Shown here one piece after another: positions 5,246-11,245 of a DNA stretch of 64,000 nucleotides; positions within the stretch are counted from its first letter, which is position 1, and each line of letters starts with the position of its first letter. Source of the stretch: Parvibaculaceae bacterium PLY_AMNH_Bact1 (GTDB taxonomy: Bacteria > Pseudomonadota > Alphaproteobacteria > Parvibaculales > Parvibaculaceae); the NCBI GenBank assembly GCA_032881465.1, contig CP126168.1:2356001-2420000 (forward strand). Reading direction: 5' to 3'. A program made the position numbers and the translations under genes. The notes under the pieces are model-generated. The model had not been told where the DNA came from and did not search any database. It saw nothing but the letters and a program-made list of their open reading frames with translations.

Positions 5246-5274
5246 TTGACAGGATATGACTGACCAGTCAGTAT
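5246..5274 (+). promoter_or_regulatory. Candidate promoter of the tetR gene
   Basis: TTGACA at 5246-5251 matches the sigma-70 -35 consensus, and CAGTAT at 5269-5274 lies 17 bases further on as a weaker -10. A palindrome fills the spacer and -10. The promoter call is inferred from consensus only. Confidence 0.5.
5259..5272 (+). promoter_or_regulatory. Palindromic operator, probably for TetR autorepression
   Basis: ACTGAC-CA-GTCAGT is an exact inverted repeat of six-base arms, of a kind often bound by TetR regulators. It lies between the candidate -35 and -10 of the adjacent tetR gene, where a bound dimer would block RNA polymerase. Confidence 0.6.
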
Positions 5275-5297: not shown

Positions 5298-5933
5298 ATG
5301 GATCTCAAACTTGTCGAGACCTCATCCGACCCGAAAGCCATCAAGCGGAATAATGAGCGGCCGAAACAGATATTAAGTGCCGCCATCGCGCTCTTTCGGG
5401 ACCGGGGTTTCGAGGCAACCCGCCTTGAAGACGTAGCGGACAAGGCGGGCGTCTCCAAGGCGACGATCTATCTCTATTTTGAGAGCAAAGAAGACCTGTT
5501 TTTTGCCCTCATCCGCGAAAAAGTTGTCCCCATGCTTGAGCAGACAATTGCCCAGGCCGAAGCGTTCGAAGGCCCCGCATCTGAGTTCCTGCGTCTCAAG
5601 GCCCAAAGCGTCGGGCGCTTGTTTGCACATTCTGAGCAGGGCGCCATTCTGAAGCTGGTAATCTCAGAAGCCCGCCGTTTCCCTGACCTGACGGACTATT
5701 ACCGAACGGAAGTCCCTGAGCGGGGTCTGGAAAACATTGCAAAAATGATCCGCCGAGGCATCGACGAGGGCGAATTTCGTGAATGCGATGCAAGAGCCGC
5801 TGCAACGGCCTTCATGTTCCCATTGTTAATGAACGGGATATGGATGAATTCCGTGGGCCCCGATGAAATCGTCGACCCAGATGCAGTCATTGACTTCCAT
5901 TGCGAGAACTTCATCCGCGGATTAAGTCCCTAA
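5298..5933 (+). CDS. TetR/AcrR family transcriptional regulator
   Basis: About 211 residues. The N-terminal TetR helix-turn-helix is clear: QILSAAIALFRDRGFEATRLEDVADKAG, then VSKATIYLYFESKEDLF. An all-helical ligand-binding/dimerisation half follows, resembling the TetR_C AefR-like group (AILKLVISEARRFP). The frame is open from an ATG at 5256, but that codon abuts the palindromic operator. The ATG at 5298 has GGAG six bases upstream and leaves the promoter outside the gene, so it is preferred. The gene sits between a CoA-transferase and a haloalkane dehalogenase and may control one or both. The inducer is unknown. Confidence 0.9.
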   Translation: MDLKLVETSSDPKAIKRNNERPKQILSAAIALFRDRGFEATRLEDVADKAGVSKATIYLYFESKEDLFFALIREKVVPMLEQTIAQAEAFEGPASEFLRLKAQSVGRLFAHSEQGAILKLVISEARRFPDLTDYYRTEVPERGLENIAKMIRRGIDEGEFRECDARAAATAFMFPLLMNGIWMNSVGPDEIVDPDAVIDFHCENFIRGLSP

Positions 5934-5967
5934 GGCTTCACATTCCCGTGCGCATCAACAAGTCAAC

Positions 5968-5996
5968 TTGACCCCTTTCCTCCTCCCTGTTCTGAT
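5968..5996 (+). promoter_or_regulatory. Candidate promoter of the haloalkane dehalogenase gene
   Basis: TTGACC at 5968-5973 and TCTGAT at 5991-5996 are separated by 17 bases and point toward the dehalogenase gene. An 11-base palindrome GTCAA-C-TTGAC (5962-5972) overlaps the -35. Consensus match only. Confidence 0.45.
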
Positions 5997-6006
5997 CAAG
6001 CTAGAA

Positions 6007-6023
6007 GGTTGCAATTTGCAACC
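6007..6023 (+). promoter_or_regulatory. Perfect 17-bp palindrome, probable operator of the dehalogenase gene
   Basis: GGTTGCAA-T-TTGCAACC is an exact inverted repeat. It lies about 11-27 bases after the candidate -10 and about 30 bases before the dehalogenase ATG, so it would cover the transcription start. It differs from the ACTGAC/GTCAGT operator in front of tetR, so a different regulator may bind it. Confidence 0.6.
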
Positions 6024-6053
6024 CGAATTGGACCAGAATTGGGGGGATAACGC

Positions 6054-7043
6054 ATGGCACTGGACTTCAAACTCACGCGCCGAGGTATCTTAACGGCAGG
6101 GGCCGCAGCAAGCGCCGCCACAGCACTCCCTGCCCACGCGACTGAAAAAACCATCAGCGCAGAGCCCCTACCATCAAAACGTGCCAAGGCCCTCGATCTA
6201 GAAATGTCTTACGTGGCGATAGGCCAAGGCGATCCCATTCTCTTCCTCCACGGCAATCCAACCTCGTCCTACCTCTGGCGAAACATCATGCCCTACGCAG
6301 CACCTTATGGCCGCTGCATCGCGCCGGATCTCATTGGCATGGGTGGGTCGGACAAGCGTCCATTCGTCGAGGGCGAAGACCCGGATGCCCGCTACGGGTT
6401 CTTTGAGCATCAGAAATATTTGGATGCTCTACTGGAGAATCTCGGCGTGACAGAAAACGTCACTCTGGTCATCCACGATTGGGGATCAGCGCTCGGCTTC
6501 GACTGGGCGCGTCGCAATGAGGAAAAGGTCAAAGGCATTTGCTTCATGGAAGGGTTCACCCGGCCCTTCGCCTATTCTGAGATGGATTGGTTTCCGTGGA
6601 TCATGTTCAAGTCTTTCAAATCAGGTCTTGGTGATTGGCTGGTACTCGAACAGAACATGTTTGTAGAACAGGTGCTGCCAGCATCTGTTCTACGACAGAT
6701 GACTGAGGAAGAGATGGGTCACTACCGCGAGCCCTATCTGAACGCAGGCGAAGACAGACGCCCTACCCTCACCTGGCCCCGCGAAGTCCCCTTCGATGGT
6801 GAGCCGGAAGATACGCACGCCATGGTCGTACAATTGTCAGAATGGCTGCAGACCAACGACCTGCCGAAACTCTTCGTAAATGCCGAACCAGGCGCTTTGA
6901 TCCAAGGCGAGGTCCGTGACTTCGTCCGATCCTGGAAAAACCAGGAAGAGATCACTGTACGCGGCATTCACTTTATTCAGGAAGACAGCCCCCACGAAAT
7001 CGGCGCAGCACTCGAAAAATGGATACCGAAGGTGCAGGTCTGA
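6054..7043 (+). CDS. Haloalkane dehalogenase-like alpha/beta hydrolase with Tat signal peptide
   Basis: A 329-residue protein. The mature part follows the haloalkane dehalogenase II pattern (DhaA/LinB group). HGNPTSS (66-72) supplies the halide-binding Asn68. HDWGSALGF carries nucleophile Asp142 and halide-binding Trp143. FMEGFTRP supplies the acid Glu166, and HFIQEDSP the base His306. Such enzymes hydrolyse carbon-halogen bonds to an alcohol and a halide ion. The N-terminus has a twin-arginine signal (LTRRGILTAG, then an Ala-rich stretch to ALPAHA), so the folded enzyme is probably exported to the periplasm, which is uncommon for the family. GGGGGA lies shortly upstream of the ATG. It follows a tetR gene and has its own palindrome-containing promoter region. 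The substrate is unknown. Confidence 0.9.
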   Translation: MALDFKLTRRGILTAGAAASAATALPAHATEKTISAEPLPSKRAKALDLEMSYVAIGQGDPILFLHGNPTSSYLWRNIMPYAAPYGRCIAPDLIGMGGSDKRPFVEGEDPDARYGFFEHQKYLDALLENLGVTENVTLVIHDWGSALGFDWARRNEEKVKGICFMEGFTRPFAYSEMDWFPWIMFKSFKSGLGDWLVLEQNMFVEQVLPASVLRQMTEEEMGHYREPYLNAGEDRRPTLTWPREVPFDGEPEDTHAMVVQLSEWLQTNDLPKLFVNAEPGALIQGEVRDFVRSWKNQEEITVRGIHFIQEDSPHEIGAALEKWIPKVQV

Positions 7044-7044
7044 G

Positions 7045-8448
7045 TCAGAGCGAAACGATTTTTCCAGGGTTGAGGATGTTGTGCGGATCCAGCGCCCGCT
7101 TGATAGTCCGCATCATATCGACGCCCTGACCAATCTCTTCTTCAAGAAAGGCCATCTTCCCCAGTCCGATCCCGTGCTCACCGGTACAGGTCCCTTCAAG
7201 CGCCAAAGCGCGACGCACCATGCGATCATGCAGCCGCCGCGCTTCCGCCATATCCCGGCGGTTCTCCGGGTCAATCAGCATAATCGTGTGAAAATTTCCG
7301 TCGCCCACATGCCCGACAATGGGAGCTGTGAGGAAGGAAGCGTCAAGGTCTGCCTTGGTCTCTCGAAGGCACCGAGCCAGATTAGAAATCGGCACACAAA
7401 CATCTGTTGTCATGCCCTTTTTTCCCGGCTCCAGGGCCAGCGACGCGTAATAGGCGTTGTGTCGCACCTCCCAGAGCCGCGTTCGGTCTTCCGCCTGCGT
7501 CGTCCAGGTAAAGTCTCCACCTCGATATTCCGAAGCAATCGCCGCAAACCGCTCAGACTGTTCTTTGACACTCGCATCAGTGCCGTGAAACTCCAGAAAC
7601 AGCATCGGGCTCTCTGGCAGGTCCAAATTTGAATAAGCGTTGCAGGCCGCAACCTGAACCTCATCCAACACCTCAATCCGTGCCACGGGCAAACCTGTCT
7701 GAATGGTTTCAATCACGGCATTGATGGCCCCATCAAGGCTCTCAAATGGGCAGATGCCCCCCGCAATCGCCTCCGGTATTCCTTGAAGCCGCAGCGTGAG
7801 CTCTGTGATGATGCCCAACGTTCCTTCAGACCCGACCAGCAAACGGGTGAGGTCGTACCCCGCGGCAGACTTGCGCGCCCGGCCTCCTGTCGTGACGGTC
7901 TCGCCGGTCGCTAGCACCGCAGTGACACTTAACACACTGTCCCGCATGGTGCCGTACCGCACAGCATTGGTCCCCGACGCGCGCGTCGCTGCCATACCAC
8001 CGAGACTTGCATCAGCCCCTGGATCGATAGGAAAGAACAGGCCCGTGTCTCTCAAATGGGCGTTGAGCTGTTTGCGGGTGACACCAGCCTGAACACGGCA
8101 GTCCAGGTCTGCCGCATGAACCTCAAGCACGTCATTCATCTGGGACAGGTCGATGGTAACCCCTCCCTGAACCGCACTCACCTGTCCTTCCAGAGATGTA
8201 CCTGTCCCAAACGCGATGACAGGCACCTGGGCCGCAGCACAAATCCGCACGATCTGCGCAACTTCCTCACTCGAAGCGGCAAACGCCACTGCGTCCGGCG
8301 CATGGGTTTCATGCCAGCTCTCGTCATGACCATGAGCATCGCGTATGGCGGCACTCAGCTGAAGACGGTCGCCCAGCAGGGCCACTAAATCTGAAACCAC
8401 ACCCGCCAAGCGGTCTTGGTCAGAGTTTATTCTCGCTACCTCATCCAT
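7045..8448 (-). CDS. FAD-linked oxidase, D-lactate dehydrogenase (cytochrome)/GlcD type
   Basis: A 467-residue flavoprotein with a PCMH-type FAD-binding domain: VPVIAFGTGTSLEGQ near 76-89, IDPGADASLGGMAATRASGTNAVRYG near 141-166, and GSEGTLGIITELTLRL near 206-221. An FAD-oxidase C-terminal domain follows, carrying GHVGDGNFH (near 380) and CTGEHGIGLGK (near 425), whose His residues bind metal or substrate in D-2-hydroxyacid dehydrogenases. The likely reaction is oxidation of D-lactate or a related 2-hydroxyacid with electrons passed to the respiratory chain. The size fits single-subunit D-lactate dehydrogenases better than the multi-subunit glycolate oxidase. It converges with the dehalogenase gene one base away. 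The exact substrate is not settled. Confidence 0.9.
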   Translation of the reverse strand: MDEVARINSDQDRLAGVVSDLVALLGDRLQLSAAIRDAHGHDESWHETHAPDAVAFAASSEEVAQIVRICAAAQVPVIAFGTGTSLEGQVSAVQGGVTIDLSQMNDVLEVHAADLDCRVQAGVTRKQLNAHLRDTGLFFPIDPGADASLGGMAATRASGTNAVRYGTMRDSVLSVTAVLATGETVTTGGRARKSAAGYDLTRLLVGSEGTLGIITELTLRLQGIPEAIAGGICPFESLDGAINAVIETIQTGLPVARIEVLDEVQVAACNAYSNLDLPESPMLFLEFHGTDASVKEQSERFAAIASEYRGGDFTWTTQAEDRTRLWEVRHNAYYASLALEPGKKGMTTDVCVPISNLARCLRETKADLDASFLTAPIVGHVGDGNFHTIMLIDPENRRDMAEARRLHDRMVRRALALEGTCTGEHGIGLGKMAFLEEEIGQGVDMMRTIKRALDPHNILNPGKIVSL

Positions 8449-9075: not shown

Positions 9076-9575
9076 TGCGACAGCTGCTTGCCATACTCGC
9101 TTTCTGTCTCTTGGGATCTCCGACGACCGCCCTTGCCTTCGCAGATTGTTCTGCCGTTCCAGCACCGGGCGTGGATTGGTCTCGGTGTTTCCTGGAAGAA
9201 TCCAATTTTACAGATAGTGATCTGACCGACGCTAAGCTGGTCGATACAAGGCTTCAGCGAGCGGACCTGTCCCGCACAATCTTCAATGGCGCGGATGCAA
9301 GAGACGCCAAATTTGTTGATGCAGAGCTGAGTGGCGCAAGTTTTGTAGGGGCGAACCTGCGCAAGGCGGACATGACCAAGGCGAATCTTGAGGGCGCGGA
9401 TCTTTCGGAAAGCAATCTCCGCAGAACACGTCTTTTCAGAGCAAATCTGAGAGGCGCTAACTTTACAGGCGCGCTGCTGGACCAAACCGACTTGTTGAAT
9501 GCTGATCTGACTGGAGCGACATGGACAGACGGCACGCGGATTTGCGCCGAAGGATCGATCGGCCGCTGCAAATGA
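9075..9575 (+). CDS. Secreted pentapeptide-repeat protein
   Basis: A 166-residue protein with an N-terminal signal peptide (MRQLLAILAFCLLGSPTTALA) and then pentapeptide repeats of A(D/N)LxX type from about residue 35 to the C-terminus, for example LSGASFVGANLRKADMTKAN. These form a right-handed quadrilateral beta-helix. With a signal peptide it should act in the periplasm. It overlaps the thioesterase gene upstream by one base and the ClC channel gene downstream by four bases (ATGA), so all three are likely co-transcribed. No catalytic residues are visible; a structural or binding role, perhaps next to the channel, is only a guess. Confidence 0.88.
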   Translation: MRQLLAILAFCLLGSPTTALAFADCSAVPAPGVDWSRCFLEESNFTDSDLTDAKLVDTRLQRADLSRTIFNGADARDAKFVDAELSGASFVGANLRKADMTKANLEGADLSESNLRRTRLFRANLRGANFTGALLDQTDLLNADLTGATWTDGTRICAEGSIGRCK

Positions 9576-11245
9576 AATCCCTTCTATCCAAACTCGTTAA
9601 ACTCCTCGCCAGAATATTCGAGGCAGTCATAGACCGCCCGATTGAAGAAAACTGGCGCGAGTTCTGGGAGTCACGGAGCTTGACCGGATGGGTGCTTGCG
9701 GCAGCGCTTGGCATCGCAGCCGCCTATGCCACCATCCTATTCCGCATGGCCATCGCCGGTGCGCAGTGGATCTGGATCGGCACCTTTGATGAGGGCACGG
9801 CAAGTGCAGCCGCTGGTGTTCCCTGGTGGCTTTTAATGGCAGGGCCCATAGGGGCAGGCCTCATTGTGGGCCTCGGCATCAAATATCTCATGCCGCTCAA
9901 CAGGACCGAAAGCGTTTCCGATGTCATTGAGGCCGCCGCCCTGAAAGCCGGTCGCATGCCCCTCAAAACAGGCATCTACTCCTCAATCCTCACAGCCATC
10001 TCATTGGGTGGTGGCGCCAGCGCCGGCCGGGAAGGTCCCGCCGTTCATTTAGGCGCCACTATTTCCGCCTATGTGGCTGAGCGTTTCAAATTCAACCCGG
10101 AATGGGGCCGCATCTTGCTGGCGTGTGGTGTTGCTGGCGCGGTAACCGCGTCATTCAATGCGCCGATTGCAGGAGTTCTGTTCGCTCACGAAATCATTCT
10201 TGGGCATTACGCGCTACGCGCCTTTGTACCCGTGTCAATCGCATCGGTCGCCGCAACATCTATCGCCCGGTTTCACTTAGGCAACTTCCCGGCATTTACC
10301 CTGCCGAACTATTCCATCGCCTCCTACTTTGAGTTCCCGGCCTTTGCTCTCCTCGGCATTATTGCCGCACTTGTGGCAATCAGCTTCATGGCTTCTGTTA
10401 TTTATGCAGACAAGGTCGCACGTGCCGTTGAGATGCCGGTCTGGCTCCGACCTGTCTTAGGGGGTGTCATTGTAGGCCTGATAGCCCTCATGGTGCCTGA
10501 GGTGTTGGGCGTCGGTTACGAAGCCACCGACAATGCGCTGAAGCAAAGTTACACGCTCCCCTTCCTGATCGCACTGCTGATCGCAAAGACCATAGCAACC
10601 GCCGTGACCCTGGCGAGCCGTTTTGGGGGTGGGGTCTTTTCGCCATCGCTATATCTCGGTGCGATGGCGGGCGGCGCCTTCGGCATAATGGCTGCCTATA
10701 TATTCCCGGGCATGGCGTCAGCCCACGGCCTTTATGCCATTGTCGGCATGGGCGCTGTCGCTGCTGCTGTCTTGGGTGCACCGCTCTCAACAACGCTCAT
10801 CGTTTTCGAGCTAACCGGCGACTATGAGGTCACCATTGCCCTCCTGCTTGCCAATGCCATCGCCACTGCGCTGACACAGGCAACCATCGGCAAGAGCTTC
10901 TTCCACTGGCAGCTGGAGCAGCGGGAGGTTCACATCCACGATGGCCCCCACCGGCGGGTGATGATGAACATTCATGTCCGCGATGTGATGACCCGGTTTG
11001 ACCAGGCTCACCCCTATTCTGAGGATGCGCCGAGATTGCTCACAGCCGCCGCAGAATCCATTCGGATATACCCTTATGACCGCCTCAACCAGGCGCTCGA
11101 TCTGATGGATGCGCACGATCTGGAACATCTGCCCGTCTGTGAGCCAGGGAAGAAAGACTCAGCTGTTGGTCGCATCACCCGCGTTGCAGCCCTCAAAGCA
11201 CTCGCAGACGGCCTGATCGCTGCATCCCGTGAAGAACATCACTAA
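9572..11245 (+). CDS. ClC family chloride channel/transporter with C-terminal CBS region
   Basis: About 557 residues with the ClC core: GASAGREGPAVHLGA contains the GREGP motif with the gating Glu, GAVTASFNAPIAGVLFAHE is the next conserved block, and FGGGVFSPSLYLGA is the GxFxP selectivity motif. The usual first motif GSGIP is not recognisable (TESVSDVIEAAAL stands in its place). The position matching the internal proton glutamate of E. coli ClcA seems to be Ile (HEII rather than IEEM), so a channel or altered coupling is possible. The last 90 residues include a CBS-like region (VRDVMTRF near 470, HDLEHLPVCE). The ATG at 9572 overlaps the pentapeptide gene stop; an in-frame ATG at 9521 lies inside that gene and is rejected. 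Confidence 0.92.
   Translation: MKSLLSKLVKLLARIFEAVIDRPIEENWREFWESRSLTGWVLAAALGIAAAYATILFRMAIAGAQWIWIGTFDEGTASAAAGVPWWLLMAGPIGAGLIVGLGIKYLMPLNRTESVSDVIEAAALKAGRMPLKTGIYSSILTAISLGGGASAGREGPAVHLGATISAYVAERFKFNPEWGRILLACGVAGAVTASFNAPIAGVLFAHEIILGHYALRAFVPVSIASVAATSIARFHLGNFPAFTLPNYSIASYFEFPAFALLGIIAALVAISFMASVIYADKVARAVEMPVWLRPVLGGVIVGLIALMVPEVLGVGYEATDNALKQSYTLPFLIALLIAKTIATAVTLASRFGGGVFSPSLYLGAMAGGAFGIMAAYIFPGMASAHGLYAIVGMGAVAAAVLGAPLSTTLIVFELTGDYEVTIALLLANAIATALTQATIGKSFFHWQLEQREVHIHDGPHRRVMMNIHVRDVMTRFDQAHPYSEDAPRLLTAAAESIRIYPYDRLNQALDLMDAHDLEHLPVCEPGKKDSAVGRITRVAALKALADGLIAASREEHH

Follow-up and report, generated by a model that had tools for sequence, protein, structure and literature searches.

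An open reading frame at positions 6054–7043 (forward strand) of the window, the 64,000-nucleotide stretch of DNA analyzed here, encodes the 329-amino-acid precursor of a LinB-type haloalkane dehalogenase (subfamily HLD-II). The best explanation for our findings, to which we assign a probability of roughly 70%, is that this enzyme is exported to the periplasm via the Tat pathway whereas a leaderless dehalogenase works inside the cell, and that the exported enzyme has its own promoter and a palindromic repressor operator. According to this model, the dehalogenase would fold in the cytoplasm and be exported in folded form via the Tat translocase, signal peptidase would remove ∼29 residues, and the mature enzyme would act in the periplasm. 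By the route known for the family, Asp142 would attack the carbon, Asn68 and Trp143 would hold the halide, and His306 and Glu166 would activate water. Hydrolysis of halogenated alkyl compounds would release halide, a proton, and an alcohol outside the cytoplasm, and the leaderless second dehalogenase would carry out the same reaction within the cell. A possible reason for export is that halocarbons could thereby be treated before they enter the cell. Expression would proceed from the gene's extended −10 promoter, and a 17-bp palindrome just past the transcription start would serve as the operator of a putative dimeric repressor.

Chemically, the dehalogenase is ordinary; what is unusual is where it is predicted to act and that the work would be divided between two compartments. 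The enzyme of this marine bacterium carries a signal whereas most of its relatives have none, and halogenated compounds are thus probably handled both inside and outside the cytoplasm.

The dehalogenase and its Tat-type signal peptide

The family assignment made in a preliminary description of this DNA is well supported. The open frame starts at ATG 6054, which is preceded by a run of G residues (6041–6046), and its product matches the NCBIfam equivalog NF002938 with 381.1 bits (cut-off 241); Pfam identifies an alpha/beta-hydrolase. HLD-II enzymes are defined by an Asn and Trp halide-binding pair together with an Asp-His-Glu triad. Both the triad (D142/H306/E166) and the halide-binding pair (N68/W143) are present at the positions first proposed for them, and all five residues are invariant throughout alignment A1 (25 rows). 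The fold is predicted with confidence: The AlphaFold2 model has a mean pLDDT of 88.2, with values below 50 for residues 1–28; the remainder is folded, and the first strand spans residues 41–46. Its best Foldseek matches are 7pw1 and LinB chains (TM-score 0.94–0.96 on target). Compared by sequence, the nearest chains of solved structure are 7pw1, 4c6h/4brz, Mycobacterium dehalogenase 3 (2o2h/2qvb), and LinB.

Tat signals carry the motif S/T-R-R-x-hydrophobic-hydrophobic, followed by a hydrophobic stretch and AxA. The N-terminus of the dehalogenase has each of these elements within a predicted signal peptide of residues 1–29 (6054–6140, forward strand): LTRRGIL at residues 7–13, with the twin arginines at 9–10, then an Ala-rich hydrophobic stretch, and then LPAHA-TEK, in which A-H-A occupies residues 27–29. 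The gene is present in six of the seven genomes of the genus, this one included, and the other five copies are 84–94% identical. All six orthologues have LTRRG-[IVA]-L, and A-x-A (AHA, AQA, or ANA) is found at 27–29. The twin arginines are retained in all six even though their codons vary synonymously (CGC, CGA, CGG, CGT, and AGA), and pN/pS is 0.20 for signal codons 1–30 and 0.07 for codons 46–327. The signal is therefore translated and under selection. The genome also encodes TatC (PF00902, 238.4 bits). Thus the twin-arginine signal and AxA region recognized earlier are borne out by motif, conservation, and the low pLDDT of residues 1–28 in the model, which together point to Tat as the likely route. 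Cleavage is predicted after Ala29.

We reject a downstream start codon that would remove the signal. The next in-frame start is Met51, which lies within the second strand of the model, so a protein initiated there would lack a portion of the fold; in addition, the signal is under selection.

We consider it very improbable that the N-terminus is no export signal and that the dehalogenase stays in the cytoplasm. Translocation is predicted from sequence and model, and leader and location can be uncoupled, since LinB is reportedly, by the title of a 1999 report by Nagata, periplasmic without processing. However, the motif, the hydrophobic stretch, AxA, and disorder through residue 28 all agree, the arginines are maintained under synonymous change, and the leaderless paralogue begins roughly where the mature dehalogenase would.

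Promoter, palindrome, and the tetR neighbor

That the dehalogenase gene has its own promoter, as also proposed previously, is inferred from the conservation of discrete blocks among the six genomes. The −35 hexamer TTGACC (5968–5973, forward strand) is part of CTTGACC, which is invariant in 7/7 columns. The extended −10 element TGtTCTGAT (5988–5996, forward strand) is invariant in 8/9 columns, and its hexamer lies 17 nt past the −35 hexamer. Upstream of the −35 is a further block, CTTCACAttcccGTGC (5936–5951), a possible activator site in which 11 of the 15 columns from 5937 to 5951 (CTTCACA..GTGC) are invariant in the six-genome alignment. The palindrome is invariant in 10/17 columns, and the stretches between or after the conserved blocks in 1/14 (spacer, 5974–5987), 1/10, and 0/20. 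A sigma-70 scan returned no promoter at its thresholds; the −10 hexamer TCTGAT has C at position 2, where the scan requires A. The CTTCACAttcccGTGC block lies ∼50–65 bp ahead of the presumed transcription start, and it was not seen behind tetR in G004, the relative that lacks the dehalogenase.

The preliminary description noted a second palindrome, GTCAACTTGAC (5963–5973), over the −35. We dismiss it as a chance feature. Its symmetry is lost in the orthologues, which keep only the −35 half CTTGACC, and arms of 5 with a spacer of at most 1 occurred in 1,077 of 5,000 simulations.

The 17-bp palindrome GGTTGCAATTTGCAACC (6007–6023), which reads GGTTGCAA-T-TTGCAACC, is perfect, as described. Its placement at the predicted transcription start does not hold, because it begins 10 nt past the −10 hexamer and spans approximately +5 to +21. 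When 20,000 stretches of 120 nt with a similar dinucleotide composition were simulated, 127 of them contained a palindrome with arms of at least 8 and a spacer no longer than 2, and five others of this kind occur within the 64-kb window; the palindrome per se is thus only mildly unusual, and its conservation is what counts. Across the orthologous promoters of the six genomes, 44 of 48 symmetric pairs around the center at 6015 are kept, versus 5–16 of 41–48 at 20 other centers. The four broken pairs are distributed among G003 (one), G008 (one), and G005 (two). Some outer pairs have changed on both sides together: The first pair switches from G-C to A-T in G007 and G005, and the second from G-C to C-G in G008. 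The core letters (TTGCA on the left and GCAA on the right) are unchanged in all six genomes. From this pattern, we judge the palindrome to be a selected element with two-fold symmetry, as expected of a repressor site, and regard it as a putative operator.

Symmetry alone does not separate an operator from a hairpin at the 5′ end of the mRNA, and the palindrome could instead protect the transcript as a terminal stem-loop of 7 bp with a 3-nt loop. In the predicted leader, this stem does form, beginning ∼4 nt past the presumed start, and the two-sided changes of the outer pairs (in G008, and in G007 and G005) would preserve it. However, a stem would need pairing alone, whereas the core keeps its letters as well as its pairing in all six genomes, and the whole leader folds no better than shuffled sequences (z −0.30). 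This alternative is therefore unlikely, and a repressor operator is the preferred reading of the palindrome.

No further copy with one or two mismatches of 17 was found in a scan of the genome, in which 6007–6023 is the only perfect site. Sites with three mismatches number 10, versus 7 for a reversed control. For the 13-bp core, 8 additional sites with one mismatch were found, versus 3 for the control. All 8 overlap open reading frames of 100 codons or more, although one of these frames, L183, is a doubtful gene. These results speak against an operator of a larger regulon: There is no other site with two or fewer mismatches, and all eight one-mismatch core sites overlap reading frames. The box of a global or metal regulator is likewise rejected, as the genome offers no further sites in its support and a literature search on Fur/Mur boxes found nothing.

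The nearest candidate regulator is encoded immediately upstream, by a TetR-family gene (TetR_N and TetR_C_7 by Pfam) at 5298–5933 on the forward strand. Its start is more likely 5298 than 5256, because ATG 5298 is aligned in all seven genomes and ATG 5256 overlaps the site TGACTGACCAGTCAGT (5257–5272). This putative autoregulatory operator lies between a TTGACA and the tetR start codon, is identical in all seven genomes of the genus, and occurs in this genome as one perfect site and one with 2 mismatches. It is probably the TetR box and distinct from the dehalogenase palindrome, to judge from the sequences of the two sites.

TetR nonetheless might regulate the dehalogenase, either by binding both its own leader and the 17-bp palindrome or through a tetR-dehalogenase co-transcript, and this is the most serious of the competing explanations, although we still think it improbable. 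In each of the six genomes that have the dehalogenase, tetR immediately precedes it on the same strand, no more than ∼130 bp away, and the TetR protein is the sole regulator among five neighboring proteins scanned. The genome's second dehalogenase also lies directly behind a different tetR, and Cif/CifR (PMC8244358) offers a precedent of an exported alpha/beta-hydrolase under a TetR repressor. Against this proposal, TGACTGACCAGTCAGT is retained even in G004, which has no dehalogenase at that place, and no operator common to the tetR leader and the dehalogenase promoter was found: TGACTGACCAGTCAGT and GGTTGCAATTTGCAACC are dissimilar, and the helix-turn-helix stretch is nearly identical in all genomes. 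Moreover, the dehalogenase has its own conserved promoter. For our main reading, we accordingly rejected the palindrome as a TetR box; read-through from tetR into the dehalogenase may nonetheless occur. An association of tetR with dehalogenase genes as a rule was not seen by eye in ten loci inspected.

Genomic setting, the leaderless paralogue, and the cap

The gene order CoA-transferase, tetR, dehalogenase, FAD oxidase (opposite strand), thioesterase, and ClC channel is the same in the five other genomes that have the dehalogenase. The seventh genome, G004, has this order minus the dehalogenase, with ∼20 bp separating tetR from the FAD oxidase gene, and thus the dehalogenase and its promoter were gained at, or lost from, one place. 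The convergent neighbor (7045–8448, reverse strand) encodes a GlcD-like FAD-linked oxidase by Pfam and NCBIfam, with the GlcD models below their cut-offs. It is present in G004 without the dehalogenase and is not part of the dehalogenase system. Three genes beyond the dehalogenase, positions 9521–11245 of the window hold by eye a ClC-type chloride channel gene. A link between this channel and the dehalogenase is unsupported, because the relative without the dehalogenase also has the channel gene.

The second dehalogenase gene of this genome (C1:3163305) lies 0.8 Mb away, and its product is 60% identical and has no signal. The other six genomes of the genus all have a leaderless copy as well. 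One of the genomes of the genus is that of a Parvibaculaceae bacterium (contig BAOK01000001) from a culture of the dinoflagellate Breviolum minutum, an origin given in PMC10915500. In several genomes, a small gene whose product is probably exported (positions 178–720 in L002) precedes the leaderless dehalogenase, also in L010, L012, L015, L019, L024, L026, and L030, and is similar between genomes. By eye, we take its product to resemble the lipid A deacylase PagL.

The cap stretch lines the substrate tunnel of this fold, and it is here that the exported and leaderless enzymes differ most. Identity between the Tat orthologues and 13 leaderless rows is 66% in the first core part, 49% in the cap, and 55% in the last core part, whereas the corresponding values among the leaderless rows are 69%, 65%, and 66%. 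At 32 positions, the six Tat orthologues share a residue that none of the 13 leaderless rows has. Many of these positions fall around residues 164–195, including the cap positions Y174, M177, W179, P181, W182, M184, and W195. In addition, a loop at about 103–111 has four more residues in the dehalogenase than in most leaderless rows. The cap differences suggest that the exported enzyme probably serves other substrates. Because the cap differs so strongly from that of the leaderless relatives, the substrate may be no simple haloalkane.

A stronger version of this idea is that the protein is exported yet is in practice no longer a haloalkane dehalogenase, its cap having been remodeled for another substrate. 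The 32 Tat-specific positions, many of them in the cap, speak for this explanation, and a member of subfamily HLD-III, OleB, provides a precedent for altered chemistry (PMC10503415). However, all six orthologues retain the complete HLD-II pentad, with both of its halide-binding residues, and the score of 381 bits is to a dehalogenase equivalog. We regard such a loss of the original activity as quite unlikely and retain haloalkane dehalogenation as the predicted function.

Predicted export across the enzyme family and comparison with known systems

The extent of export among these enzymes was surveyed in a class-wide sample of 385 genomes (this one and two others of the genus included), with an E-value limit of 1e-60 for relatives. 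We classed export by eye from the N-termini, with the aid of a hydropathy window. A relative is encoded in 76 genomes, at 97 places; the N-terminus of one (L127) is unreadable, with a stop just before the domain, and several others have in-frame stops further up. By this visual classification, 13 of the 97 places have an export-type N-terminus. Four are Tat forms (three of this genus and a Tat lipoprotein, L099), three are other lipoproteins (L136, L145, and L148, with the doubtful lipoprotein L157 left out of the count), three are Sec forms (L150, L151, and L138, the last being the same place as L049), and three have a membrane anchor (L140, L141, and L143).

In a phylum sample, 12 of 398 genomes have a relative (13 places, this genome included), and two further Tat forms, L192 and L198, were found. 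The family of L198 contributed matches in 21 of 295 genomes (24 places). These include six intact Tat forms, four Sec forms (L207, L208, L221, and L222), one form (L203) interrupted by a stop codon within its twin-arginine motif, and one (L212, in G1051) left unclassed with its N-terminal part in another frame. In L203 (G831), a TGA stands where the motif's second arginine is expected, preceded by Met-Asn-Arg and followed by an open frame; either the sequence is in error here or export has been lost naturally. The family of L099 (f91) has matches in three of five genomes and includes a second Tat lipoprotein, L225. Both L099 and L225 have a Tat motif followed by a lipobox, and L136, from the same family, resembles a lipoprotein of the Sec type; a switch of export route seems to have occurred within this family. 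Tat forms outside the genus, other than these lipoproteins, are L192, L198, L201, L202, L204, L205, and L206.

The full pentad is present in all 29 rows aligned (this genus and 23 exported relatives from outside it), and the five exported relatives scanned (L099, L141, L150, L192, and L198) all score above the dehalogenase cut-off. A mixture-model tree was built from 85 chosen rows, without the Sec forms L093 and L222. It places the second Tat group within a clade (support 99) made up mostly of exported enzymes, whereas the Tat group of the window (support 100) and the L099 lipoprotein group (support 99) branch among LinB-type enzymes, each on its own long stem. This tree requires a minimum of four changes between the exported and not-exported states. 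A first tree joined the window's Tat group to the L099 group (support 86, with a long-branch warning). The mixture-model tree did not recover that join, and we therefore claim no common exported ancestor.

Judged by their N-termini, exported haloalkane dehalogenases are uncommon but not unique. We tentatively propose, at somewhat less than even odds, that export is a repeated but little-noticed evolutionary step in this family and yields a periplasmic shield against halocarbons, or a means of scavenging them, whose substrates are unlike those of the inner enzyme. If this is true, then Tat, Tat-lipoprotein, Sec, lipoprotein, and membrane-anchored forms coexist in a family usually treated as cytoplasmic, and some genomes, this one among them, run one enzyme per compartment with different caps. 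The role of haloalkane dehalogenases in bacteria without past exposure to industrial halocarbons is a matter of continuing debate (PMC6299022). A lineage with one inner and one Tat-signaled, cap-remodeled enzyme would make this natural role directly testable. In addition, a dehalogenase that is naturally exported in folded form would be a ready start for periplasmic labeling or whole-cell catalysis; the fold of the Rhodococcus dehalogenase (HaloTag) can be used in the Escherichia coli periplasm when a DsbA signal directs it there (PMC4800872).

A natural Tat-signaled haloalkane dehalogenase is not described in the literature covered on haloalkane dehalogenases with twin-arginine signals, which was available in part and consists mostly of papers free of subscription. 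The nearest published case that we met is LinB, which by title is periplasmic without processing. Cif belongs to the same broad fold class as the haloalkane dehalogenases. It is exported, as is predicted for the enzyme described here, and likewise has an adjoining TetR gene (PMC8244358). However, Cif is an epoxide hydrolase, and in the present system the palindrome before the enzyme gene is unlike the probable TetR box. The RdhA reductive dehalogenases are exported by Tat, the route predicted here, but they are corrinoid/iron-sulfur enzymes (PMC6299022), whereas the dehalogenase here is a hydrolase of another family.

The other exported haloalkane dehalogenases (L099/L225, L192, L198, and others) resemble this enzyme in their full pentad and in an N-terminus that by eye is of the export type. 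They differ in occupying other parts of the tree, with the Tat group of the other family in a separate, mostly exported clade. The closest likeness is to LinB and the HLD-II enzymes, with which the dehalogenase shares its predicted fold and pentad, 52–53% identity to the LinB structures, and 52–55% identity to the five plasmid linB genes listed. What sets it apart from them are its Tat signal peptide, the 32 distinctive positions (many of them in the cap), and the longer 103–111 loop.
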